From a virus, in the IMG/VR virus record IMGVR_UViG_3300031576_000096, positions 1 to 45,387 of that record: DNA of 45,387 nucleotides, one strand, 5' to 3'. This document shows, one piece after another, positions 1,945-45,387 of the stretch; within the stretch, counting starts at the first letter, position 1; each line of letters begins with the position of its first letter. The notes under the pieces were generated by a model, which searched no databases, was not told the origin of the DNA, and worked only from the letters and a program-made list of their open reading frames with translations. Both the position numbers and the translations under genes were made by a program.

Positions 1945-2105
1945 GTAAAGCACAAAGGTATTTGTTCATAGAGCATTGTAATAATGATAATGATTTAGGT
2001 GAGCGTATGAAGATACTACGAAGAGAATCATTACAATTACTAGAAGATGTTTTGAATAAGTATGTATGGAAGAGGGGGTTTAATGGGCAAACTAGAAGCC
2101 GCTAA
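1887..2105 (+). CDS. hypothetical helical protein, 72 aa
   Basis: Starts at ATG 1887 inside the 3' end of the HD gene, with GGGAGAA upstream (about 1870). It ends inside the PrimPol-helicase start. The product is charged and predicted all-helical (ELPEEVRQALSKAQ, then LRRESLQLLEDVLNKYVW). There is no recognisable family. Overlaps on both sides and a fair ribosome-binding site favour a real gene. Confidence 0.65.
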   Translation: MGKRTQKSVELPEEVRQALSKAQRYLFIEHCNNDNDLGERMKILRRESLQLLEDVLNKYVWKRGFNGQTRSR

Positions 2106-3558
2106 AGCCTATATACAAGCTGGGCTTAGTGTCATACCCTTAAAACCAAACAGTAAAGTACCTGCTGTTATATGGAGAGATTATACTAAAAGACACGCAA
2201 CATTTGAAGAGATTAATAAATGGTTTGGCAATGGAGTTGATAATAATATTGGCATAGTTACAGGCAAAATATCTAATTTAATAGTTGTTGATAGAGATGA
2301 AAAGAATTTACCATTAGAAAACCAATCTAATGTTCAAGTAGTAACACCTCGTGGTGTTCATGACTATTTCCAATATAAAGAAGGTGTTAATAATGCAGTT
2401 GGGATAAATGGCCATAAGATAGATTTAAGATCTGAAGGTGGTTATGTTGTAGCCCCTCCTTCTACAGTCAATGGTAAGGGATATTACAGAGTTATGGGTA
2501 GTGGCTTAATACATGAACGACCAGAATTTAAAGAATTTACTTTTCAAGTAGTCAAGGAATCATTTACAACTGTTACAGTAGAGCAGACTATTGAAGGCTC
2601 AAGGAACCAAACTACTACTAGATATGTTGGCAAGTTGTTACAACAAACACCTGAAAAGGATTGGGACACATATGCTTGGAATACTATACTAGCTTACAAT
2701 AATACTTATAATAAACCGCCTTTGGATTTAGATGAACTTGGTAATATCTTTGATTCCATAGCACATAGAGAAGAAGCTAGTAGGGAAGAAAAACCTAAAG
2801 AAGATATGTTGTTTAAACCTACACCGATTGATGTAATATTTGACATGAAGATACCTAACCCTGGTTACATGGTTGACAAGCTAGTAACCCAAGAAGGTAT
2901 AACAATAATAGCAGGTACACCTGGATCTTTTAAGACATGGTTATTGTTTAATATAGCTAAGTGTGTAGCTGATGAAACATCAGATTTCTTAAATAAATAT
3001 ACTACTAAGCATGGAGGGGTCCTTATAATAGACAAGGAGAATGGACTTAGACGAATCAGGAGAAGGCTTTCTTTGCTAGGAGTATTGGATTACCATAATA
3101 TATTCGTTGAAACTAACCCACATTTATATATAAATAACAGTACAATAATCCAGATACGTGACTTTTGCCTTTCAAATAATATCAAATTGGTGACTTTAGA
3201 CTCACTAAGAAGAGTATTTGATGGTAATGAGAATGATTCTAAAGAGATTAACAGATTCCTAAACTGTCTTAAGGTATTGAAAGAAGCTGGTATAAGTATA
3301 GTATTAATACATCATTATAACAAACCTGTACCTGGAATGAAGCAAAGTATGAGAGGTAGTAGTGATTTGGAAGCAGGTGTGGATAGTGTAATAGAAGTAA
3401 AAAGAACAGGTATAAAGAGTGTTATAGTAACACAAACTAGAGATCAAGATGCTGATAGTTTTCTTAATCTAAGTTTAACAGTAGTGTCAGATCCAGATGA
3501 TTTTGAATTTAAAGAAGAGATACACATAAGAGATGAGGTAACTAGAGGTGGATTCTGA
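2083..3558 (+). CDS. PrimPol-helicase (bifunctional primase/polymerase with RecA-like ATPase)
   Basis: Residues about 5-170 form an archaeo-eukaryotic primase (Prim-Pol) domain: VVDRDEK supplies the metal-binding D69 and D71, RGVHDYF follows, and SEGGYVVAPPS is the typical closing motif. From about residue 270 a RecA-like ATPase begins, with Walker A GTPGSFKTW, a Walker B-like LVTLDSL, sensor IVLIHHYN and MRGSSDLEAGVDSVIEV, as in phage RepA-like helicases. The protein should prime and unwind DNA at the fork. I chose ATG 2083 because AGAGGGGG lies just upstream; ATG 2062 would lack a site. It is the only polymerase-like gene in the genome, so elongation probably uses host enzymes. Confidence 0.88.
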   Translation: MGKLEAAKAYIQAGLSVIPLKPNSKVPAVIWRDYTKRHATFEEINKWFGNGVDNNIGIVTGKISNLIVVDRDEKNLPLENQSNVQVVTPRGVHDYFQYKEGVNNAVGINGHKIDLRSEGGYVVAPPSTVNGKGYYRVMGSGLIHERPEFKEFTFQVVKESFTTVTVEQTIEGSRNQTTTRYVGKLLQQTPEKDWDTYAWNTILAYNNTYNKPPLDLDELGNIFDSIAHREEASREEKPKEDMLFKPTPIDVIFDMKIPNPGYMVDKLVTQEGITIIAGTPGSFKTWLLFNIAKCVADETSDFLNKYTTKHGGVLIIDKENGLRRIRRRLSLLGVLDYHNIFVETNPHLYINNSTIIQIRDFCLSNNIKLVTLDSLRRVFDGNENDSKEINRFLNCLKVLKEAGISIVLIHHYNKPVPGMKQSMRGSSDLEAGVDSVIEVKRTGIKSVIVTQTRDQDADSFLNLSLTVVSDPDDFEFKEEIHIRDEVTRGGF

Positions 3559-25959: not shown

Positions 25960-28002
25960 TTAAACTTGTGGAGGTTGTGCCGCTGCTTGTGGAAGTTGGG
26001 TATTAGGTGCAACGGCTTGGCCTCCTGCAGCAGCTATTACAGCCGCTGGATTTTCTTGTAAAATTTGAGGCATAGATTTAAATAACTTACTTATTGGTAA
26101 ATTGTACACCTTATCTAGTAATCTTAGTATCTCGTTACCATCCATAGGTTTACCAGTTCTTTGTTCAAGCATTAGAGTAGGAGCTAATTGTAATAATTCT
26201 AATAAATCTTCTTTTAATTCCCTTTTAGTAGCTTCTGCTGTATTACCTTCAATTATGATATTAGACTCAGTGAATTTAGTTATTATTAATGAGTATATAA
26301 AAGCTGGGTTAAGTATACTTTGTAATTCCGTAGCTTTTTCTGGATCTATTCGGTATAAGTCCTTCATCTTATTATCAATCTTCTCTTCAATTTTTGAATA
26401 TATTAAAAAGTTTCTAAACATCCTTGAATTAGCTCTAATATATTGCCACTTCTTTAATTCATCCATCTTAGTTCCATTTTTCTTCTCTTCTTCACCCATA
26501 TCAAATAGTAAATTCTCTACTTCTGCTTCAATATAAGTTTGTGATAACAGTGTATGTTTAAAAACAAAAGGTTGCATTAAATTATCATTTTGATGTTCAA
26601 TTATATAATCAATAGGAACATCTCCAGCTTGTTTCTCTTGTTCTACTTCACCCAATGTTTTTCTAACTGTAGAAGTTCTTTGACCAAGATTTATTTCTGT
26701 TATACCACTACCCTTTTGTACTTGCTGCTCAATAAAGCCCATTAATGCTATATAAGCATTTAGATCAGATTTAATATCCATCTGCTCTACATCATCTTTT
26801 GTTCTAATAGACCAGATCGCCCTTGGATACCAGTTAAAGCTATCAGCTGTCATTGTACCATCATCAATTACTTTTAATGGTGGGAAAGTAGCTACTAATA
26901 GTGCCTGCATAGCTGTTGATGTAGCTAAGTTTGCCATAGCCTGATATGGTAAATTTTGTAATATCTTTGATTGGTAATAAACGGTTCCAGCTGGTGTTGG
27001 TCCAAAGGTTGCAAATAATATTGGATTTTGTTCTCTTGAATCCAACTCTATAGCTCTTAATATTGTGCATATTTTATCTTTATCCTCACTTTGACCTTCT
27101 GCAATAGTAACTAAAATATTTTTAAAATGTAATTTCGGATTCTCCCTTGATACCCAATAAGGTATAAATAATGTACTTAAATTGATCATACCATAATCAG
27201 CTATTTCAGTATTTTCTAAATAAGTAGTTTCCTGTGAATGGTATGAGATTCCTGTTGAAGCCAAATCCATAGACATTTTTAGTTCATCTGTAATCTCCTT
27301 ATCTAGACTAGGATTGTCTAAAAGATCAGTTATAGGTACTTGATAATTAATCATCAATTTAGACCTATTAATATCCTCTTTCGCTGAGTGGATAGCCATA
27401 TCCCTAACATTTATAACATGGGCATCAACTAAGCCTAAATCTTCTGAATACTCTAAATACATACATGTGTTACCAAATATAACAGATTGTAATTGGGCTT
27501 TTGTTATCTTACTTGGAGCTTTTATCCTGTTGTAAGTAGCCATTAGATAATCTTTCCAAGAGGCTTCTAGTACTGGGACTAATTCTGGGTAGTTAGCTGA
27601 TAATTTTTCATGCCAATCAAACTTAACACTAAAGAATTCTCGATTTCTAGGTATTGTAGAACGTCTTAAATGGCCTGTCCAGCCTTGAGCTTGTCTAGAA
27701 GATAAAGGTAAGTAAAACTTCATTTCAACATCTGTAGTATCAGTAGACTCTGCTATTATCTGATCTACATTAACTGGACTTGTTATATCTGTTTCAATAC
27801 TTCCGGCATTACCAGAAGTTGTTGCTAATTTACTTAAATTAATAAATCTCTGAAGCACAGCAGCTTCTGCTTTTTCCCAATCTCTATGCAATTGTGCTTT
27901 TTCCATAAAAGAAGTTGTTTTTAAATGCAAAAGAAACTTCTTAAATTCATCAATAGATTCAGGATTATTTTTTTCTATTTCTAATATATCTAAATTCTTC
28001 AT
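25960..28002 (-). CDS. portal protein (head-tail connector)
   Basis: 680 residues, the right size for a podovirus portal. Helix-rich clip and wing regions with WTGHLRRSTIPRNREFFSV, IFGNTCMYLEYSEDLG (a 'G.....' wing strand), NINLGQRTSTVRKTLGEVEQ-like C-terminal part, and an Ala/Pro/Gln-rich tail (NTQLPQAAAQPPQV). It lies directly after the terminase nuclease half and before the scaffold, the standard order. It forms the dodecameric DNA channel at the capsid vertex. Confidence 0.82.
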   Translation of the reverse strand: MKNLDILEIEKNNPESIDEFKKFLLHLKTTSFMEKAQLHRDWEKAEAAVLQRFINLSKLATTSGNAGSIETDITSPVNVDQIIAESTDTTDVEMKFYLPLSSRQAQGWTGHLRRSTIPRNREFFSVKFDWHEKLSANYPELVPVLEASWKDYLMATYNRIKAPSKITKAQLQSVIFGNTCMYLEYSEDLGLVDAHVINVRDMAIHSAKEDINRSKLMINYQVPITDLLDNPSLDKEITDELKMSMDLASTGISYHSQETTYLENTEIADYGMINLSTLFIPYWVSRENPKLHFKNILVTIAEGQSEDKDKICTILRAIELDSREQNPILFATFGPTPAGTVYYQSKILQNLPYQAMANLATSTAMQALLVATFPPLKVIDDGTMTADSFNWYPRAIWSIRTKDDVEQMDIKSDLNAYIALMGFIEQQVQKGSGITEINLGQRTSTVRKTLGEVEQEKQAGDVPIDYIIEHQNDNLMQPFVFKHTLLSQTYIEAEVENLLFDMGEEEKKNGTKMDELKKWQYIRANSRMFRNFLIYSKIEEKIDNKMKDLYRIDPEKATELQSILNPAFIYSLIITKFTESNIIIEGNTAEATKRELKEDLLELLQLAPTLMLEQRTGKPMDGNEILRLLDKVYNLPISKLFKSMPQILQENPAAVIAAAGGQAVAPNTQLPQAAAQPPQV

Positions 28003-28020
28003 ACTATCTTATATTATATG

Positions 28021-28971
28021 TTACATTGGTATGTGAACGCCTCCCTTTCGTCCTTTAACCCTTTTCTCATTAATACCGTCAAATTTATAGAAAAACATAT
28101 ATAAAGGTCTAACTGCATCAGATACGTGATCATTCCAATTATCTTTAATAAAACCTGATGTTATCACTGGTTGACCGTCTATCGTCACCTCTCTTCTTCG
28201 ATAACCACCACCAAACATTTCTAACAAATCTCTATCATCTGGATTGATAGTTGTCAATGGCAGACCCTTAATTACTGATCTTCCTAATATCCTGTTTATT
28301 AAATCAACGCCATCACCGATATGATGATACTTATAAAAAGGTACAAATCCTTTTGATCTCATTAATTCAAATGGACTAGCCATTCCAGCTTTTGTAATAC
28401 CAGAACCACCTGCTTGTAATCCTTCTTGAGTCATTGCCCATTTAATTTTTGAATGTGGAAATGTCCTTTGTGTATACTGGTATACTGCATCTAAGAAGAC
28501 ATCTAAATCTTGATCCCTTCCTCTTACCGTATGATGGAGATGGAGGAATGTGTGACCTTGTTTATCCTCTGCTTGAGCAATAATAGCACATGGATGATGA
28601 AAACCAAAATCAATAGAGATATACACAGTAGAACCAACAATATAACCAGGATAATGTTTAGTATGGAAATCAGGATCGAAATTAAAGTAAGCAGCAAGTT
28701 TTTGAGTAGAAGCATAAGGATTATTCTCCATTTCTTCTTGCCATATAGGATTATCTTTTCCTCCCATTGTTTCAGCAAGCCAATCAAAATATTGTGGTAC
28801 GGAAGCTATAGGATGTAGCTTTTGTCTACGTCTTTCTTCATTAACAACATTCAAATCTATACTTTCTTCTGTTTGTGCTCTATAATTTAAAGTTAAACAT
28901 GAATACCCATCAGAATTCTTGTGTAAATACATTCCTTCTATTATTTTCGTTTTCGGTGGGTCTTTTCTCAT
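28021..28971 (-). CDS. terL: large terminase, C-terminal nuclease half
   Basis: 316 residues. Residues 1-110 match the TerL region after the ATPase core (PIWQEEMENNPYAS is like the usual Q-E clamp). Then an RNase H-like nuclease starts at VYISIDFGFHH (catalytic D121) and ends with NDHVSDAVRPLYMFF, the last metal-binding Asp. There is no Walker A or B here; these are in the ATPase half at 32205-32867. The two halves sum to 536 residues, a normal full-length TerL. Starts with TAATG coupling to the 97-residue gene. The split is the main oddity of the virion region. Confidence 0.85.
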   Translation of the reverse strand: MRKDPPKTKIIEGMYLHKNSDGYSCLTLNYRAQTEESIDLNVVNEERRRQKLHPIASVPQYFDWLAETMGGKDNPIWQEEMENNPYASTQKLAAYFNFDPDFHTKHYPGYIVGSTVYISIDFGFHHPCAIIAQAEDKQGHTFLHLHHTVRGRDQDLDVFLDAVYQYTQRTFPHSKIKWAMTQEGLQAGGSGITKAGMASPFELMRSKGFVPFYKYHHIGDGVDLINRILGRSVIKGLPLTTINPDDRDLLEMFGGGYRRREVTIDGQPVITSGFIKDNWNDHVSDAVRPLYMFFYKFDGINEKRVKGRKGGVHIPM

Positions 28972-29264
28972 TAAGTACTCTCATCTAGTAATTCTAACAT
29001 TTCTTTAGGGGACATTAAATTTTTACTAGTTTTCTTTCGTAATCTTTCAAGTTCTCTACTAGGACCTGTCAACAACTTGGGTTTAAATTTTTTTGGTTCA
29101 AAGAGTTCTGGTTCAAATAACTTATTTCTGAATTCTGAAATTGACGCTTCTATAGGGCGACCTGTTTGTATGGCGTACTTTTGAGCTAATTTTCTACGTA
29201 ATTCATCCTTCTCTTCAAAAGAAATATTCGGATCTCTTAGTCTTCTTATAAATGGATCAGGCAC
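28971..29264 (-). CDS. hypothetical charged protein, 97 aa
   Basis: Highly charged, with a helical start (SFEEKDELRRKLAQKYAI), a proline/lysine linker with repeated ELFEP/KKFKP steps, and a helical end (SRELERLRKKTSKNLMSPKE). It directly precedes and is coupled to the terminase nuclease half (shared TAATG). Possibly a terminase or head accessory; no recognised domain. Confidence 0.65.
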   Translation of the reverse strand: MPDPFIRRLRDPNISFEEKDELRRKLAQKYAIQTGRPIEASISEFRNKLFEPELFEPKKFKPKLLTGPSRELERLRKKTSKNLMSPKEMLELLDEST

Positions 29265-29272
29265 ACTTCCTC

Positions 29273-29617
29273 CTATACCTTATCTATAATAATCCAGGCA
29301 ACATTACCATCAGCACCTGCATTAGAACTTGTAATAACAAATGAAACCCCATTAGTAATAGTTGAAATTCGTAAAAAGCCAAATGCGGAACCACCAGGCT
29401 GCTCAGTTAAAAATACTCTACTATTTGTATTTACAGCTGTAGTAGTTACAGTAACAGTTCCAGCTGATAATGTGGAAACTCCAAAAGAAGAATTTACACC
29501 TTCTACAAATTTTAATTTCTTACCCAATACTAGAAATCTAACATCTTCAATTATATTTCTGAAAGCATATGCCATATCTTTTATATCTAATATAGATTGT
29601 CTAACCATTAGTTTCAT
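29273..29617 (-). CDS. decoration-like beta protein, 114 aa
   Basis: N-terminal amphipathic helix (ILDIKDMAYAFRNIIEDV), then a small beta-sandwich: GTVTVTTTAVNTNSRVFLTE, GFLRISTITNGVSFVITSSN and VAWIIID. This strand pattern is widespread as an appendage domain at the ends of phage fibres or as a free virion protein. It overlaps the next gene by 17 bases. Probable virion surface protein. Confidence 0.66.
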   Translation of the reverse strand: MKLMVRQSILDIKDMAYAFRNIIEDVRFLVLGKKLKFVEGVNSSFGVSTLSAGTVTVTTTAVNTNSRVFLTEQPGGSAFGFLRISTITNGVSFVITSSNAGADGNVAWIIIDKV

Positions 29618-30125
29618 CCTTAATCACCATAGGTAGCTTATCAGTATCCATAGCTTGTCTTATAGCTTTAATTAAATCTCCAGCATTAGTAGATGCTATT
29701 ATACCTTTTGCATCACCTTTTTGAAACATTCCAATCAAAGCTGCAGAATCCTTTGTAGGCAACATACTTGCAATTTGTCCTAACATACGTGCATACTCTC
29801 TATGAGAATATCTATCACCGGCTTCGTATGATTCATACATACCTTTAATAAGGTGATTTAGCACATCTGCTCTTAAAGAATCTGTGGCATTTTTATCACT
29901 ATCTACTATTGCATAACACATGGCTAAATCTACTAACCTACCTGCATAATCTACTCCTGTATGCAATTGCTCTGCCACTTCTTTAGTAATATCTTCCCAA
30001 TTATCCTTAGTATTATCTTTATATTTTTTTAAAACTTTTAAAATTATCTCATGGCCAACTTGATTTTGCTCTCTTGCAACTAAAGCTTCTAATTTCTTAT
30101 CTTTGTATTTAACAACCTTTGCCAT
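29601..30125 (-). CDS. hypothetical helical protein, candidate small terminase, 174 aa
   Basis: All-helical. A possible helix-turn-helix lies near residues 43-70 (WEDITKEVAEQLHTGVDYAG), followed by an oligomerisation-like middle and C-terminal helices (NAGDLIKAIRQAMDT). No TerS is recognised elsewhere, and this is the only leftward gene near the terminase halves with both a possible DNA-binding helix pair and a helical core. The assignment is by elimination and stays weak. Coupled by an overlapping start to the 91-residue gene. Confidence 0.6.
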   Translation of the reverse strand: MAKVVKYKDKKLEALVAREQNQVGHEIILKVLKKYKDNTKDNWEDITKEVAEQLHTGVDYAGRLVDLAMCYAIVDSDKNATDSLRADVLNHLIKGMYESYEAGDRYSHREYARMLGQIASMLPTKDSAALIGMFQKGDAKGIIASTNAGDLIKAIRQAMDTDKLPMVIKDETNG

Positions 30126-30400
30126 TATTGTTGAAAATCTTTCTTTCTTTTTTGAAGAGTTGATTCAATCATATCTAATAATGCAAATAATTTATGGCTA
30201 GGTATTAAATCAAAATCTTTTTCCATTTCATTTTTCAAAATATCAGATTCTAAATCAAGGGAATCTGTTCCTGAAAACTTTCTAGGATCCCTTATTCTAT
30301 TTTTTAAACCGGATATTCTTTCTAGTGGGGAAAATAACCTGTCAAATTCATAAGATTCTTGAGTACCCTCTTCTCCACTTATTATTAAATTTATTGGCAT
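30125..30400 (-). CDS. hypothetical protein, 91 aa
   Basis: Starts with MPINLIISGEEGTQESYEF, then charged helical segments ending KLFALLDMIESTLQKRKKDF. GGAGG site before ATG 30400. The end shares a base with the next start. No known family; carried within the cassette that separates the two terminase halves. Confidence 0.62.
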   Translation of the reverse strand: MPINLIISGEEGTQESYEFDRLFSPLERISGLKNRIRDPRKFSGTDSLDLESDILKNEMEKDFDLIPSHKLFALLDMIESTLQKRKKDFQQ

Positions 30401-30408
30401 CCAACCTC

Positions 30409-30816
30409 CTATTCTGTTACTGCTACATCATATGCCATTCTTACTTTTCCAGTAAAGTTAAATGTTCCAGTTAATGTAGAAACAATTCTAATAAATCTAC
30501 CTGGTATTGTTCTAATAGCACCTGATATAGATTCACCATTATTCAATGTAGACTCAGAGATATAAGTAGGTGGTACTACAGCATTGTTAATAGCTGCAAA
30601 AACATGTATTCTTTCCCAATAAGCTGCAATTGCATGTAAAGTACTATCAACATTAGTAGTTTGTATTTCTACTACATGATTTCCAGCACCTGCTGATACA
30701 GCTGTAATTTCCTGTGAGAAAATAGGATTTCTTCTACCTTCCATTGAAATTGCTTCACCTATAAAGGTTGTAGCTTGAGCTGAAAACTCTTTCAGTACGG
30801 TAGTTCTATCGGACAT
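30409..30816 (-). CDS. decoration-like beta protein, 135 aa
   Basis: Strand-rich: NHVVEIQTTNVDSTLHAIAA, GESISGAIRTIPGRFIRIVS, TFNFTGKVRMAYDV. The strand pattern is like a jelly-roll or sandwich decoration protein. Good AAGGAG site before ATG 30816. No motif names a specific family. Confidence 0.63.
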   Translation of the reverse strand: MSDRTTVLKEFSAQATTFIGEAISMEGRRNPIFSQEITAVSAGAGNHVVEIQTTNVDSTLHAIAAYWERIHVFAAINNAVVPPTYISESTLNNGESISGAIRTIPGRFIRIVSTLTGTFNFTGKVRMAYDVAVTE

Positions 30817-30826
30817 TATTAACTCC

Positions 30827-31051
30827 TTATGTTAGAGTTAATGTATCATCAACTCTACCTGTAGCTGTTAGTGCATTACTTACATGTACTTTTACAGCTT
30901 CTACTGTACCATCTGCTGTAGCAATTTGGCATTGTAATATGATGTGATCTGGAGAAGCCTTAGCTGCATTAAGACCTGCAGTATCATCTCCTCCAATTAA
31001 TCCTATTACATTAACCTTAGTTGGTGCTAGTTTATTAGTTGTTGCGGCCAT
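30827..31051 (-). CDS. hypothetical beta-rich protein, 74 aa
   Basis: Ala/Thr-rich with strands NVIGLIGGDD, HIILQCQIATADGTVEAVKV and a final TGRVDDTLTLT. AGGAG site upstream. Probably a small virion protein in the same cassette; no recognised family. Confidence 0.62.
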   Translation of the reverse strand: MAATTNKLAPTKVNVIGLIGGDDTAGLNAAKASPDHIILQCQIATADGTVEAVKVHVSNALTATGRVDDTLTLT

Positions 31052-31079
31052 TAAATTCTCCTATATCTATTATATTAGA

Positions 31080-31565
31080 CTATGATGCACTTCTTTCTGC
31101 ACAATAAATTGACATAGAAATTACTCCAGTGTCAAGACTATCTGTGATAGAAGCTGTTATATATGCACCTGCACCAACATCTAAAAAATTTATATTTAAA
31201 TCTGAAGTATTGGCTATACCATTACCATTTACAGTATTTATTTCTGTAGTAACTGTCGTACTTGCTGCACCACCTGTTGATGTGCCTTCATTCCAAACTG
31301 ACAATACTAAAGACGATCCACCTGAAGCTGTTGATACAGCTGTGGTTTCTCTGTAAACTGCTTTTGTTATTGTGTAGTTATTTTGTAATGGAACTACTAC
31401 AGCTGACGGTGTTGATAGAATTGGACCCTCTGACAAATCTGCTGCAGGAAAGCTCATTAGTAACTTTTCATTACCTTGTGCACAAAGCATATCTTCTCTA
31501 GCAGTAGATGTTCCACCAGTTATAGATTTTCTGTGTTCTCCGATTCTTACATTTAATATAAACAT
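31080..31565 (-). CDS. hypothetical beta-rich virion protein, 161 aa
   Basis: Begins MFILNVRIGEHRKSITGG; the first 12 bases of the gene equal those of the gene at 23448. The rest is Thr/Ser/Ala-rich beta sequence (SSLVLSVWNEGTSTGGAAST, GAGAYITASITDSLDTGVIS), like a fibre-knob or decoration domain. Translationally coupled to the 58-residue gene upstream (TAATG). Confidence 0.63.
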   Translation of the reverse strand: MFILNVRIGEHRKSITGGTSTAREDMLCAQGNEKLLMSFPAADLSEGPILSTPSAVVVPLQNNYTITKAVYRETTAVSTASGGSSLVLSVWNEGTSTGGAASTTVTTEINTVNGNGIANTSDLNINFLDVGAGAYITASITDSLDTGVISMSIYCAERSAS

Positions 31566-31741
31566 TAGTAACTTCTCCTTGATTTAGAGCGGACTACCGC
31601 TTCTACTATTTTAGCTCTTTTTGCCTTAGAATATTTAGATAAACTTATATTACCTATTTTTCCTGTACTTTTAGCTGAAGAAAAAAGTTCCTTTCGGTTC
31701 TTTTGCATTGTCTTTTTAGACTTTCCTGCTAATAGAGGCAT
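31565..31741 (-). CDS. small basic protein, 58 aa
   Basis: Starts MPLLAGKSKKTMQKNRKELF and is rich in Lys, Arg and Ser, ending in RSKSRRSY. Phages often carry a short 'MP...GKS..T...N' basic protein near terminase or head genes, of unknown role; this resembles a divergent member. ATG 31741 lies 8 bases after TATACT on the leftward strand, and no Shine-Dalgarno is clear. Confidence 0.6.
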   Translation of the reverse strand: MPLLAGKSKKTMQKNRKELFSSAKSTGKIGNISLSKYSKAKRAKIVEAVVRSKSRRSY

Positions 31742-31796
31742 ACACTAATAGTATATGTATCAAAATGTTAATATAATAGAAAAGTGAAAGGTTTAT
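31742..31796. promoter_or_regulatory. divergent promoter region between small basic gene and HNH-fold gene
   Basis: 55 AT-rich bases. Leftward strand: TTAACATT, then TTGATACATATACT ahead of ATG 31741. Rightward strand: TATAAT at about 31771-31776 and GTGAAAGG before ATG 31797. The early-type spacing is not met on either strand. This is the only point where a rightward gene interrupts the leftward virion arm. Confidence 0.4.
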
Positions 31797-32273
31797 ATGG
31801 GACGAACCGGCAATCTAATCGGCAGTGAATATACTAATCCTCGTGGATTGGTGTATATAAAAGTGAAAAAAGGTAGATTGTGGAGGCAATGTTGGATACC
31901 AAAACAAAGGTTCCTAGTTCAGAATATACTAGGAAGGGATTTATTACCAGAAGAGAGAGTATTACGAGTTAGAGGCAATAAAAATCAATTTGAAATGTGG
32001 ATGTTTCAAGTTATAAACTACAATACTGGAGTAATTATTAGATTTATTGGCGATAAAGGTGAATTTTACGCTAAAGCAGTGACAAAAATATGGTCTAACC
32101 AATATGATAAGTGTCTGAAATGCCTAAAATGTCAATTCAAATACGTATCTAGAGGTCTATGTTCACGTTGCTATAGAAAAGAAATGCAATCTATTAAAAA
32201 GGAATTACTTTCTAAGCGCAGTTCTCAGACCTTCCCACATAACCATGAAATCATTGAGCCTAGGAGTACTTAA
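31797..32273 (+). CDS. HNH-fold protein with lost active site plus zinc ribbon
   Basis: The only rightward gene inside the leftward virion arm. Its first 75 residues follow HNH homing endonucleases closely: YIKVKKGR, WIPKQRFLVQNILGRDLLPE, ERVLRVRGNKNQFEMWMF. In active enzymes the last block reads roughly V-H-H-I-x-G-N-K-x-x-N; here VLRVRGNK has Leu56 and Arg57 in place of both histidines, so cleavage is unlikely. Residues about 103-126 add a zinc ribbon (CLKCLKCQF ... CSRC). Probably a DNA-binding remnant or repurposed regulator. Its end overlaps the terminase ATPase gene by 69 bases, antisense. Confidence 0.7.
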   Translation: MGRTGNLIGSEYTNPRGLVYIKVKKGRLWRQCWIPKQRFLVQNILGRDLLPEERVLRVRGNKNQFEMWMFQVINYNTGVIIRFIGDKGEFYAKAVTKIWSNQYDKCLKCLKCQFKYVSRGLCSRCYRKEMQSIKKELLSKRSSQTFPHNHEIIEPRST

Positions 32274-32867
32274 AACAACAACTTGACCTCCACCTTTTAT
32301 AGTAAATCCTAGTGATTTCCATGTATCTAATATGTAGTCAGTGGAAGAAGTCTCATCCCATATTACAAGAGAAGCAGTTTTTCCTCTTATCTGATCTGGT
32401 CCAGATGCTACACCTTTTATGAAACCACCCATCTCTTCACATTCTATAATATTAAATTTCTTAGTTAACTTTGGTAAAAAAGTTTTATATTCTTCTGGAA
32501 TATTTTCGTACATAAACCAAACTCTTTCATTTAATAAATCATTGGCTTCTTCAGATTTTCTAGAGACTACATATATACCTACATTTGGAAAGAACAATAA
32601 CTTCCATAAAGCAAAGGCACATACAATCCATGTTGCCATCATTCTTCTAGATTTATTGATTATCAATACCCTATTATCTACTATAAGTTGAACAGTTAAT
32701 TGTATGTATTCCTCTGAAATAGGCATAGGCCTTATTGCTGGAAATCCTAAATTTCCTCTAGCTTCATCTACAGTTAAAATACAATCTTTAAAGAAATAAA
32801 TAGGTTGCTGTATCCATTCTTTAATCTTTGTTATCTTGTCCTTCTCTGTCTGGTTTAATTTTGTCAT
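32205..32867 (-). CDS. terL: large terminase, N-terminal ATPase half
   Basis: 220 residues covering exactly the packaging ATPase core: Walker A-like IINKSRRMMATW (about 69-80), GPDQIRGKTAS (156-166), Walker B SLVIWDE (166-172) and coupling motif VVVLSTP (196-202). It then stops 18 residues later, where an intact TerL would run on into the nuclease. The nuclease half is 3.2 kb downstream on the same strand. AAAGG ribosome-binding site; overlaps the 49-residue gene upstream. Its 3' end is overlapped antisense by the HNH-fold gene. Confidence 0.87.
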   Translation of the reverse strand: MTKLNQTEKDKITKIKEWIQQPIYFFKDCILTVDEARGNLGFPAIRPMPISEEYIQLTVQLIVDNRVLIINKSRRMMATWIVCAFALWKLLFFPNVGIYVVSRKSEEANDLLNERVWFMYENIPEEYKTFLPKLTKKFNIIECEEMGGFIKGVASGPDQIRGKTASLVIWDETSSTDYILDTWKSLGFTIKGGGQVVVLSTPRLNDFMVMWEGLRTALRK

Positions 32868-32970
32868 TAGTAACCTTTTTTAAATTAAATGTTAGTGATC
32901 CATCCGGATGAACTATTTTATCAGCCTTAGATAAATCAAAATCAAATGAAACTACATCTTTATTCGACAT
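32821..32970 (-). CDS. hypothetical protein, 49 aa
   Basis: Starts at ATG 32970 inside the 3' end of the protease gene and overlaps the terminase start by 47 bases. Acidic start (SFDFDLSKADKIVHPDGSL), short basic strand (TFNLKKV), polar tail. Too short for assignment; the ribosome-binding site is weak, so translation may be coupled. Confidence 0.5.
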   Translation of the reverse strand: MSNKDVVSFDFDLSKADKIVHPDGSLTFNLKKVTNDKIKPDREGQDNKD

Positions 32971-33739
32971 ACAAAATATTAGGATTAACTTGACCTGGAA
33001 GATTGTCTATAAATCTTTGTATGTCATATGATGAAGTGCAGAATCCCAAATATCCTCCTTTTGCCACTCCTCTACCAAAGTTTACTATACCTATTACTTT
33101 GCCATTGGATAATAGTAATGGGCCTCCAGAATTTCCACCTATTATATCAGTATCTGTTTGAATGGCATTATATATTACAAATCCTGGACCTATTATTTCC
33201 TTCCTCAATGCGGAAATTACCCCGCTAGTAATTGAATATTTTAAACCCAATGGATGCCCAATTAATATAACCTGTTCACCTATTTTTACCTTTTCTAAAT
33301 TCGCTAAAGCAAGTATTTTATACTCCGGTTCTGGAGAATTTAAATCTTGCTTATCCGTAATTTCTAGCAAGGCCAGATCTCTTCCTTCATCTAGTGTAAT
33401 TAATTTAGCTGTATATCTGACACCATTTATAAATTCCACTGTAATCGAAGAATTACTAGATACTATATGAGCAGCTGTAATTATCTGTGGTTTACCGTCT
33501 ACTACCTTAATTACAAATCCTGATCCAAATATAGACAATAGCCCTTCTTCAGACATTCTGGTAGTAGAAATATATACAATACCTGCTTTAGAATTTTTAT
33601 ATACTTTAGCTGAATTAAAAAATCCTACTATAATCTGATCTTCGGGAAGTGGATTATCATAACTTGGTAAATTGCTTGTAGTTTTGCACCCTGAACTTAA
33701 AATCGTTAAAGCTAATATACCAATTAATAATTTCTTCAT
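32960..33739 (-). CDS. lipoprotein trypsin-like serine protease (HtrA/DegP-type)
   Basis: N-terminal lipoprotein signal: basic KK, hydrophobic LLIGILALTIL, lipobox LSSGC with Cys18. The mature part is a chymotrypsin-fold protease with all catalytic residues: H91 in ITAAHIV, D121 in DEGRDLALLEI, S204 in IGGNSGGPLL, as in HtrA/DegP proteases. No PDZ domain follows. The 259-residue protein should be exported and lipid-anchored, facing the periplasm or cell surface. GAGGAG site. It sits before the terminase genes and after the repeat-rich region, and could act in superinfection exclusion, envelope remodelling or virion processing; none is proven. Confidence 0.85.
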   Translation of the reverse strand: MKKLLIGILALTILSSGCKTTSNLPSYDNPLPEDQIIVGFFNSAKVYKNSKAGIVYISTTRMSEEGLLSIFGSGFVIKVVDGKPQIITAAHIVSSNSSITVEFINGVRYTAKLITLDEGRDLALLEITDKQDLNSPEPEYKILALANLEKVKIGEQVILIGHPLGLKYSITSGVISALRKEIIGPGFVIYNAIQTDTDIIGGNSGGPLLLSNGKVIGIVNFGRGVAKGGYLGFCTSSYDIQRFIDNLPGQVNPNILYVE

Positions 33740-34956: not shown

Positions 34957-35772
34957 TCATAACATCATATACTCAGCTTTAGGAATACTAGTAGGATAAC
35001 CATACTGCCATATATCATCTAGTTCATCAGGTAGTAATTCTCTTTTTAAATATTTAGACCACTTATCTATTTCCTTATCATATATACCATCATTTTTATA
35101 ATCATAATCATCATAATCTAACCATTTATCGTATTTATAATTATAAGTATTTGTGTAAGTACTTAAATTACCATAGTCGTGATAGTTTGTATACTTTGTT
35201 AAAAATGACTGATTAGAATAATATATACCGTTATCTTGTATAAAATTACCATATCCATTTATCTCTACTTTATTATATCTCATTACTATAACCTTTTGAT
35301 AGCCAATATCTCTAATAAACTCATCATCCTGTTTAATTGACTTCAGTACTGCCATAATCCTACTATCGGATATAGGAGCTTTATTTAGTTCTAATATATC
35401 AGAGGTACTAAGTCTATTCTCATTATAGGCTTGCTCTAGTAAAGTACCGCAATCTGATAAGTGGCCATTGTGAAATAAAACATCATTAGAGACTTTACCA
35501 CTTAAGACTATAGGTGATGTACTATCTATTAAAAATGGATGTATTAATTCTTTACAAGTAACCCCTGAAGTAGTAAACCTAAAATGTATTGTAAACGGTA
35601 AATTAATACTACTTACTAACTTTCTTAATTGTTTTAATTTTAATCCTTTTTTAATTATTAATTGGTTATTCTCATAGTAGCCTATACCGATACCATCATT
35701 ATTCTGCCTCTGAGCTTTTTTTAATATAATGTTACTTGGTTTTTTATCTTTACAAACTAATATTACACACAT
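34957..35772 (-). CDS. class II glutamine amidotransferase-like (Ntn hydrolase)
   Basis: MCVILVC places the nucleophile Cys2 directly after Met, as class II glutaminases require. Further family residues follow: NNDGIGIGYY (24-33), HFRFTTSG with R65, and LFHNGHLSD with the oxyanion-hole Asn102-Gly103. This domain hydrolyses glutamine to release ammonia. After about residue 170 comes an unusual Tyr/Asp/Asn-rich segment (DYGNLSTYTNTYNYKYDKWL) and no synthetase domain, so the ammonia acceptor enzyme must be separate. The amidoligase gene overlaps its start by 10 bases and is the obvious partner. Confidence 0.82.
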   Translation of the reverse strand: MCVILVCKDKKPSNIILKKAQRQNNDGIGIGYYENNQLIIKKGLKLKQLRKLVSSINLPFTIHFRFTTSGVTCKELIHPFLIDSTSPIVLSGKVSNDVLFHNGHLSDCGTLLEQAYNENRLSTSDILELNKAPISDSRIMAVLKSIKQDDEFIRDIGYQKVIVMRYNKVEINGYGNFIQDNGIYYSNQSFLTKYTNYHDYGNLSTYTNTYNYKYDKWLDYDDYDYKNDGIYDKEIDKWSKYLKRELLPDELDDIWQYGYPTSIPKAEYMML

Positions 35773-36596
35773 ACTTTTATTACCTCGTTATCCTCTATTT
35801 CATTATCTGGCATAATCTCACCTACATTTATTACAAATCTTTCAGTTTTAACTAGCTCATGTTTGTTAGTATGGATATAACTCTCAACTATACTCAAGTA
35901 GGCCATTATGGCATTAATAGCAGTATCTTTATACTTAAAAGCTGGAAATAATCTACATTCTAAAGTACCATGTAAACTGTAACAATAGTTTAATTGAGAA
36001 TACCTTGTACTACCTTTACCAGCATCATTAGTTTGTATTTGTGGCCTAAATACATCAGTACAAAATGTATTTGAACCTTCTAACCTATTCCAAAAATGTT
36101 TGTTAGTTATATTTTTATCAGCATATTCTACTATCATTTTTTTAAAATAAGTATTAAACTTACTTGACATAAGTAAAGAATAATAGTTTTTTTGTTTTAG
36201 GCTAATGTGTATATGTAAGCCACAAGTAGAGTTAGTTTTATCAGGGTAATTGTCATTTACGTATACTATCAAGTCCTGTACTTTAGTTATGGGATTAGAA
36301 CGTGTTTCACCTATTAGGCCTGCTTCTTCTACTGTACCATCATAAGTATAGCATATTTCACAACCAAGATCACCACAACCGCAATCATTACCATCATTGT
36401 AAATATAATCATCATCATTGATACGGCCACTGTTATTAAAATGTACTGAGCCATCATAACAAAATCTAGATATTTGTCCCCTATTTCTTATAAGCCATTG
36501 TCCTTCTATTTCTAAACCAATAGCTTTAATGTATTTAAGTTTAAGTAAACTATAAGAAAATATGTTTGTTGATGTTATATGATTTAGCTTACTCAT
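35763..36596 (-). CDS. amidoligase (COOH-NH2 ligase, GCS/GS-like)
   Basis: Key features of the amidoligase family: AIGLEIEGQW (E29, E31) near the start, FCYDGSVHF, GETRSNP, TNSTCGLHIHISLKQ, NRLEGSNTF and the closing GTLECRLFPAF. These belong to the glutamine-synthetase-like ATP-dependent ligase fold that joins an amine to a carboxyl group. An extra cysteine-rich insertion (NDCGCGDLGCEICY, about residues 69-82) may bind metal. At 277 residues it is full length. Overlaps the upstream 158-residue gene by 8 bases and the amidotransferase by 10, a tight operon. The substrate could be a peptide, protein or small acid; it is not predictable here. Confidence 0.85.
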   Translation of the reverse strand: MSKLNHITSTNIFSYSLLKLKYIKAIGLEIEGQWLIRNRGQISRFCYDGSVHFNNSGRINDDDYIYNDGNDCGCGDLGCEICYTYDGTVEEAGLIGETRSNPITKVQDLIVYVNDNYPDKTNSTCGLHIHISLKQKNYYSLLMSSKFNTYFKKMIVEYADKNITNKHFWNRLEGSNTFCTDVFRPQIQTNDAGKGSTRYSQLNYCYSLHGTLECRLFPAFKYKDTAINAIMAYLSIVESYIHTNKHELVKTERFVINVGEIMPDNEIEDNEVIKVCV

Positions 36597-38626: not shown

Positions 38627-38786
38627 TTTTATACCTTTCTAGCGCTTCACTATTACGTTTTCTTTTCAACTCATAAGACCAATTTATTTCCTCTTCCGTA
38701 CATTCACACAATTCACTAGACATGTCATCAGTAATTATATCCAAATCTTTAGAATACATTAAACAATTTGGGCAATGTATACTCAT
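38601..38786 (-). CDS. small zinc-finger-like protein, 61 aa
   Basis: HCPNC at residues 4-8 and CEC near 27-29 could form a small zinc site. The rest is charged helix (EEINWSYELKRKRNSEALER). ATG overlaps the sigma factor stop as ATGA, so the two are translated together. It may regulate the sigma factor (small co-transcribed partners often do), but there is no motif for that. Confidence 0.62.
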   Translation of the reverse strand: MSIHCPNCLMYSKDLDIITDDMSSELCECTEEEINWSYELKRKRNSEALERYKNETNNINS

Positions 38787-39634
38787 AATACATCACCTAT
38801 TATCTTTCTTATATCAGGATTATCTAGTTTCTTTTTAGCTCTAGTAAACATCTGCCTAGCACGTTCTTCTGTTATACATAATTTTATAGCAATTTCATCA
38901 AACTTAGGTTTATCACAATAGTAACCAAACATGTACTTAATAAGATATATTTCATGAGGCTCTAAATAATTATGTAAGATAGTATCTAAGTCATCTGATA
39001 ATTCTCTATTATCTACAGACTCCTCTAGGTTACAGTTGTCACTCAACATTTCTTCTATTGTTATATCTTCATCCGTACCAGCAACTTTCTCATTTGTAGA
39101 GATGGAACCTTGCACAGACTTTATAGCAGATTTTAATTTAACCACATTAACATGCAAAGAAGCCGCAATCTCCTCATCAGTTACTTCTCTACATACAAGG
39201 CTTTCTAATTCACCTCTTATAGTTAATGCCTTATTTGCTAATACTGCATGAGCAAAGGGTACTTTGTATGTTCCAGATTGCTCAGTTATTGCAACACCAA
39301 TTAATTTTCTAATCCAATTGTAAGCATAAGTACTAAATTGAATATCTTTTTTTACATTAAACTTTTCAACTGCTGTTTTTATACCTAAAGCGCCTTCTTG
39401 GCACAAATCTTCTAAGCCTACACCACGCCCTACATAATTTTTAGCAACACTTATAACTAGCTTCATATTATGTTTAACTAAAGTATCGAGGGCTTCTTTT
39501 ATACCAGATTGATAAGCTATAATCAAATCTAGTGTTTCATTTGGAGTTAATACTTTATGATGGGTAACAGATTCTAAATAATCTTTAATCTCTGGTCTTC
39601 TTAGTTCTTGTTTTAATGCTTCATAATTTCTCAT
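38783..39634 (-). CDS. sigma-70 family RNA polymerase sigma factor
   Basis: 283 residues with regions in order: 2.1-2.4 (LVISVAKNYVGRGVGLEDLC, QEGALGIKTAVEKF, QFSTYAYNWIRKLIGVAI), a region-3-like helix-turn-helix (TDEEIAASLHVNVVKL), and region 4 (DEIAIKLCITEERARQMFTR) that contacts the -35 site. Region 1.1 is absent. It should direct host RNA polymerase to phage promoters. Transcribed from an early-type promoter at 39835-39866 after a 61-residue gene. It may switch on the virion genes, whose upstream regions lack the early motif. Confidence 0.9.
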   Translation of the reverse strand: MRNYEALKQELRRPEIKDYLESVTHHKVLTPNETLDLIIAYQSGIKEALDTLVKHNMKLVISVAKNYVGRGVGLEDLCQEGALGIKTAVEKFNVKKDIQFSTYAYNWIRKLIGVAITEQSGTYKVPFAHAVLANKALTIRGELESLVCREVTDEEIAASLHVNVVKLKSAIKSVQGSISTNEKVAGTDEDITIEEMLSDNCNLEESVDNRELSDDLDTILHNYLEPHEIYLIKYMFGYYCDKPKFDEIAIKLCITEERARQMFTRAKKKLDNPDIRKIIGDVL

Positions 39635-45236: not shown

Positions 45237-45387
45237 GCAAGAGTATACTGAGAGGCCTGCTAGAGTTTACAGGCCTTTCATGTACTCAGATGGTTCTTAT
45301 GGTGCTTTTGAAGAGCCATATCAAATAGTAAATGACATTAGTAAGAGACTAAGAAAAGTGGAAGAAAACAATGTCAGAAAAATCAGG
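45202..45387 (+). CDS. 5' part of junction-spanning hypothetical gene
   Basis: ATG 45202 (MTKKKSVESLTRQEYTERPA) after AAAGAGA, open to the end of the window and continuing in frame at base 1, with the stop at 73-75. Contains PFMYSDGSYGAFEEPYQIVN, then a basic helix (DISKRLRKVEENNVR). Overlaps the upstream gene by 35 bases. Not recognised. Its continuity over the ends is the best evidence that the window is a closed genome. Confidence 0.72.
   Translation, partial: MTKKKSVESLTRQEYTERPARVYRPFMYSDGSYGAFEEPYQIVNDISKRLRKVEENNVRKIR
45376..45387. repeat. 12-bp terminal direct repeat, right copy
   Basis: AGAAAAATCAGG, identical to bases 1-12. Collapsing the two copies gives a 45,375-base circle. Confidence 0.85.

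Follow-up and report, generated by a model that had tools for sequence, protein, structure and literature searches.

The virus record IMGVR_UViG_3300031576_000096, analysed here over its whole length of 45,387 bp (the window, with 167 open reading frames (ORFs) in the ORF-level searches), encodes its large terminase (TerL) as two genes, a 220-aa ATPase and a 316-aa nuclease that, judged from their sequences, are the two halves of one TerL; on the comparisons set out below we take the split to be real, conserved and recurrent. We put at roughly 0.8 the probability that the two products, a subdomain-I chain and a chain of subdomain II, hinge and nuclease, act as one motor. An initial annotation of the window had described two separate TerL genes about 3.2 kb apart with 536 residues in total, and its coordinates and lengths were reproduced (Table 1); stop codons and eight genes separate the two, and the TerL activities do not lie on one polypeptide.

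Assignment of the two genes to TerL

The 220-aa ORF carries an ATPase core with Walker A, Walker B and coupling motifs, as the initial annotation had described. The Walker A is deviant (NKSRRMMATW, residues 71-80), with a lysine at its start and no GKS/T, while the Walker B (IWDE, 171-172) is followed by the coupling motif STP at residues 200-202, after which the chain extends for 18 residues and stops. The ORF matched phrog_2 (5.4e-14), PF03237 (2.1e-06, above the cut-off) and phrog_5989, as well as T4 gp17 in the PDB (7.8e-05). No second TerL ATPase of the same family was found in the window record, each split genome checked has exactly one, and the window holds no intact TerL copy.

The 316-aa ORF is read as the other half of TerL because two independent tests agree. 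For the first, a profile was built solely from one-gene TerLs of related contigs and run on all of the window's ORFs. The best match was the ATPase ORF (E 7.5e-46, profile positions 18-224 of 519), followed by the nuclease ORF (E 1.2e-14 to 5.2e-16, positions 274-493), with the third-ranked ORF at only E 0.05; the two ORFs cover complementary, non-overlapping parts of the profile, consistent with the earlier statement that nothing essential is missing. For the second, the ATPase and nuclease were joined in silico and the virtual chain was scored against phrog_2, with four shuffled nucleases as controls. The chain scored 70.1 bits for the window (residues 45-522) and 69.7 bits for a relative (residues 56-519), as against 52.9 and 47.9 bits for the respective ATPases alone; the four shuffled chains scored 49.8-51.3 bits, with the match ending at residue ~216-231. 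The real nuclease thus brings a gain of about 19 bits that is absent with shuffled ones, and both tests point to a C-terminal RNase H-like nuclease homologous to that of TerL. A search of both halves against TerL profiles had been among the checks proposed initially, and both were matched, the nuclease via the one-gene profile.

From its motifs, D121, E183 and D285 are proposed as the catalytic residues of the nuclease. An AlphaFold model of it from a two-row alignment had a pLDDT of 34.6 and was not used. A chimeric TerL, with ATPase and nuclease drawn from different families, had been suggested by the first match (L002), and was rejected because intact relatives carry both halves in a single reading frame.

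The leftward late region runs in the order serine protease, 49-aa ORF, ATPase, eight small genes, nuclease, portal, scaffold-like gene and SU10-like capsid. The nuclease half therefore lies directly upstream of the portal gene, with the capsid gene close by, the usual neighbourhood of TerL.

An independent contig, IMGVR_UViG_3300031576_000097 (45,362 bp, circular, its ends identical over 127 bp), shares the split, all eight intervening genes and the opposite-strand gene, in the same order and at 74-80% nucleotide identity to the window. Its junction spans the circularisation overlap, so that continuity there rests on the 127-bp repeat; the window is contiguous at this point. Amino acid identity between the two is 90% for the ATPase (L003:8001-8660) and 86% for the nuclease (L001:441-1388), and the ratio of nonsynonymous to synonymous substitution rates (dN/dS) is 0.053 and 0.10, respectively, compared with 0.065 for the portal and 0.10 for the capsid. 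Both TerL halves are under strong purifying selection, like portal and capsid. Within the interval the relative differs solely by an additional 85-aa gene (L001:184-441) just before the nuclease half, and judging from this the interval is still gaining genes.

Recurrence, position and history of the break

More distant relatives, designated by L numbers, were found first with a degenerate DNA pattern encoding the deviant Walker A (KSRRMxATW) and afterwards by alignment search; this gave further TerLs with 22-36% identity to the window ATPase. Relatives with the same split, which the initial annotation had suggested looking for, were among them: the halves are separate genes in 14 contigs besides the window, some of them near-copies. 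The divergent loci with this break are L013/L015, L019, L022, L023, L034, L035, L038-L040, L042-L043 and L044. By alignment, at least four further divergent TerL lineages are split at the same loop. The halves overlap by 4 nt in L019 and are 4 nt apart in L023 and 107 nt apart in L022; the gap is ~0.6 kb in L013/L015, where it holds a free-standing HNH gene, ~0.75 kb in L035, ~1.0 kb in L038-L040, ~1.5 kb in L034 and ~4.5 kb in L042-L043 and L044, the nuclease gene of L044 being a weak match truncated by the contig end. Two further contigs, L037 and L041, have a truncated ATPase, but their sequence ends before any nuclease, and they are not counted in the 14. The nuclease half of L019 (L019:1881-3731) is interrupted, immediately downstream of catalytic motif 1, by an intein-like insert (DYG|C ... 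HWNGN|TPA).

One-gene TerLs occur in the same family, in L028-L033 (506-519 aa), L036 and L048 (a Caenarcaniphilales metagenome-assembled genome), and intact TerLs with a related nuclease are found in the named phages BcepC6B, Rollin, Hodr, Pmp11 and Mwe-JY08. Those of Rollin (L049), Hodr (L050) and Mwe-JY08 (L052), recognised by the nuclease profile, were deposited as 'hypothetical protein'. In Vibrio phage PVA7 (L053) the TerL-like nuclease region is annotated as several tiny ORFs, probably through sequencing errors. Searches of a phage collection with the window's nuclease, portal and capsid gave no matches, and a profile search of genome contigs with a two-sequence nuclease alignment found nothing.

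On the profile, all ATPase halves end soon after the coupling-motif helix, at ~221-231 (that of L034 is ~15-30 residues longer), and nuclease halves begin at ~243-256, ahead of the HYxADP strand. The window nuclease aligns with confidence only from position 274, though in multiple alignments its residues ~11-31 are matched to the same strands. At the break position the one-gene TerLs L028-L033 carry a long acidic linker, for example NEGEPDEEQEPHD in L033, that is absent from the one-gene L036 and L009.

An AlphaFold model of the intact L033 TerL, made from a 28-row alignment (pLDDT 88.6, pTM 0.69), had full-length T4 gp17 as its best PDB match (1.4e-20); the RB49 nuclease domain also matched (4.6e-4), and phi28 gp11, of a phi29-type motor, was among the structural matches. 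In the model the break region, residues ~227-239, is flanked by a helix (217-223) and strands (235-257). Residues 107-304 of gp17 are aligned by the profile, the alignment ending at 304, and the break was placed using what we take to be the gp17 residue boundaries of subdomains I and II. The model thus puts the break in a solvent loop between the post-coupling-motif helix and the subdomain II strands, at the boundary of subdomain I (the 'engine') and subdomain II (the 'transmission') inside the ATPase domain, and not at the ATPase/nuclease hinge, so that the nuclease chain retains subdomain II, hinge and nuclease. In this respect the initial annotation, which had the gene split at the domain border, requires correction.

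In concatenated trees, where the direction of change depends on the root, split and intact forms intermix. A single clade of split rows was rejected (p-AU, from the approximately unbiased test, 3e-5 with 19 rows), as it was in reduced sets with the window (1e-16) and without it (0.0019), and one origin without reversal is rejected. Split rows surround the one-gene group L029-L033, whose sister is L023/L025 (99/98). The window sits on a long branch whose placement is poor. Most simply, the gene was split long ago and re-fused once, with possibly a separate split in the window's lineage, and the acidic linker of L028-L033 is possibly the scar of that re-fusion. The sister loci L023 and L013 each have a split TerL, the HNH gene lying in the junction of L013 only; because L023 is split without it, the split is older than the HNH gene in this clade. 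ATPase-only trees with BcepC6B-type outgroups were discarded, since those ATPases align poorly.

A probable two-chain motor and its alternatives

In T4, ATP occupies a cleft formed by subdomain I (engine) and subdomain II (transmission), which are connected through a hinge to the nuclease domain, or wheel (PMC3012670, PMC9958956). The split TerL shares with single-chain gp17 (PDB 3cpe) the ATPase-then-nuclease order and a homologous core, but it is made from two genes, is cut between subdomains I and II, and has NKSRRMMATW instead of NLSRQLGKTT at Walker A. In the two-chain motor that we favour, chain 1 would be subdomain I, the packaging ATPase's nucleotide-binding core, and chain 2 ATPase subdomain II with the hinge and the RNase H-like nuclease. 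Both would be expressed from one leftward cluster of genes and come together again in the motor at the portal, with the ATP cleft as their meeting point, the engine driving a subunit of transmission, hinge and DNA-gripping nuclease non-covalently, with paired chains and unchanged chemistry. A non-covalent interface is plausible at the ATP cleft, which is where the natural cut moves the join. Assembly from both chains in this way is most likely, and with it the initial proposal that the halves work in trans.

Several points weigh against this reading. The nuclease alone has no match in Pfam, PHROG or the PDB, the window nuclease is just 20-25% identical to the nuclease halves of the other split lineages, and its first 62 residues lie outside the coverage of the intact-TerL profile. 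Association of the chains and motor activity are predictions from sequence. Moreover, when T4 gp17 was cut at the hinge both enzymatic activities were kept but translocation was abolished (PMC3012670), so that a split motor cannot be assumed to work; here, though, the cut lies elsewhere and leaves the hinge intact.

A more radical proposal, which we hold to be unlikely though worth stating, is that these are true two-component machines, in which a ring of subdomain-I ATPases works with exchangeable transmission-hinge-nuclease chains whose number may vary or which may join only for cutting, and that at this one loop TerL was both split and re-fused in the course of evolution. We think it improbable that there is no joint motor at all, with the ATPase chain translocating alone and the nuclease chain serving only genome cutting or another role. 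The phi29-type packaging ATPase has no active nuclease domain on its chain, the phi28 match is a reminder that such motors exist, and the genes and expression levels of the two halves are now independent. Here, however, the nuclease is kept as a conserved second gene beside the portal, together with the equivalent of subdomain II; in gp17 this subdomain completes the ATP cleft, so the ATPase chain alone would be without part of its catalytic cleft, and the constraint on the two halves is similarly strong.

Equally hard to sustain is the cause given in the initial annotation, an insertion or rearrangement, read here as a mobile HNH endonuclease or a rearrangement that recently interrupted an intact gene whose halves then drifted apart. 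An opposite-strand HNH-like gene does run into the 3' end of the ATPase gene, the corresponding junction of L013/L015 contains a free-standing HNH gene, and the tree would allow an independent split in the lineage of the window. But the same break recurs in at least four other lineages, in L023, L019 and L022 without any insert, and in some of them the two genes adjoin or share 4 nt; the split precedes the HNH gene in the L023 clade; HNH homing leaves seven further same-strand genes of the interval unexplained; and the window and its relative differ by 10-14% in TerL yet share the whole arrangement.

It is very unlikely that RNA or protein splicing (a group I or II intron, a split intein or trans-splicing) restores one chain, although terL is a known target of both. 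Intron-interrupted terL genes, in Bastillevirinae (PMC11878797) and Jug phages (PMC12363816), likewise come in pieces with genes between them and HNH genes nearby, and the intein-bearing TerL of cyanophage Mic1 (PMC7156551) has an interrupted open frame, as may the nuclease gene of L019 with its insert. In those phages splicing yields one chain, whereas here the interval consists of eight conserved same-strand genes and one on the opposite strand, up to eight unrelated genes interrupt a single constant structural loop, the 18 residues after STP are too few to hold an N-intein, a TAATG overlap gives the nuclease a start of its own, and the two genes adjoin in L023 and overlap in L019. Rfam searches, with novel intron classes outside their reach, detected no intron up to E 1 at 27.5-33.5 kb and none at gathering score across the window, and six split loci were likewise free of hits up to E 0.1; no intein sequence was found in the window, nor, by eye, an intein signature at the nuclease N-terminus. 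Programmed frameshifting was considered for the overlapping frames of L023 and L019, but is no option for the window, L022, L034 or L043.

An assembly chimera or a decayed terL, conceivable for a metagenomic contig whose ends match over just 12 bp, is highly unlikely, because the independent contig has the same layout at 74-80% nucleotide identity, both halves are strongly constrained (dN/dS 0.05-0.10), and many other contigs have the same break.

Gene content of the window and wider meaning

Exactly eight leftward genes lie between the halves, as had been counted, together with a plus-strand ORF of 158 aa (Table 1). The latter had been called an HNH-fold gene; the ORF itself is there, its HNH nature is weakly supported (three HNH PHROGs at E 0.14-0.19), and the catalytic His pair is replaced by Leu-Arg at the expected position (VLRVRGNKNQF). 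Its final 69 bp (23 codons) are antisense to the coupling-motif region at the ATPase 3' end, and it is possibly a domesticated, catalytically dead homing endonuclease. The TAATG in which the start codon of the nuclease overlaps the stop of the preceding gene suggests translational coupling of the two. The window's intervening proteins had no match among the proteins of other split or intact loci, so that different genes have filled the junction in different lineages, and those of the interval probably built up once the junction was open.

Table 1. Features of the split TerL locus in the window
Feature	Position	Strand	Evidence
TerL half 1: ATPase subdomain I, 220 aa (predicted)	32205..32867	-	TerL family matches, motifs, one-gene TerL profile
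HNH-like 158-aa protein, CxxC zinc ribbon	31797..32273	+	85% identity in relative; dN/dS 0.15; counterpart L003:8595-9071 (-)
58-aa basic protein, phrog_2423-like	31565..31741	-	E 0.0012; 93% identity in relative
161-aa protein, fast evolving	31080..31565	-	dN/dS 0.47
74-aa protein	30827..31051	-	compared with relative
135-aa protein, possible decoration or structural	30409..30816	-	conserved in relative; no family above noise
91-aa protein	30125..30400	-	compared with relative
174-aa helical protein; its position alone makes it a small terminase candidate	29601..30125	-	no family above cut-off
114-aa free-standing K1-lyase_C domain protein	29273..29617	-	PF24146 E 3.1e-22
97-aa protein	28971..29264	-	stop codon overlaps nuclease start (TAATG)
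TerL half 2: ATPase subdomain II, hinge and RNase H-like nuclease, 316 aa (predicted)	28021..28971	-	one-gene TerL profile, fused-chain phrog_2 score
Portal (head-tail adaptor family)	25960..28002	-	phrog_332 E 1e-14; immediately downstream of nuclease half, the usual TerL-portal order

K1-lyase_C is normally the C-terminus of capsule lyase tailspikes, and here forms a gene of its own between the TerL halves. Adjoining TerL at 32960-33739 is a trypsin-like serine protease with a lipoprotein-like start (58% identity in the relative). Elsewhere the window encodes a sigma-70-type factor (38783-39634), a prim-pol/helicase protein (2062-3558) and a weak amidoligase-like protein (35763-36596). Its ends are identical over 12 bp (1-12 and 45376-45387, AGAAAAATCAGG), which suggests a circularised or nearly complete genome.

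Some actinobacteriophage annotations label the 'ATPase domain' and 'nuclease domain' of TerL separately. No paper on TerL as separate, unspliced ATPase and nuclease genes was found in the open-licence literature. The DNA polymerase III alpha of jumbo phages, split into two distant genes (PMC7824862), is likewise a core phage enzyme made as two subdomain proteins from separate loci, although a different machine.

TerL is usually treated as a universal single-chain gene and as a marker for tailed phages. Because the nuclease half has no database match on its own, TerL searches with full-length or coverage filters miss or mis-score phages of this kind. If the two-chain motor is true, natural two-chain TerLs would mean that the covalent link between the ATP-binding and force-transmitting subdomains is dispensable, and the halves could be purified, mixed and mutated separately to probe how ATP hydrolysis is coupled to DNA movement.

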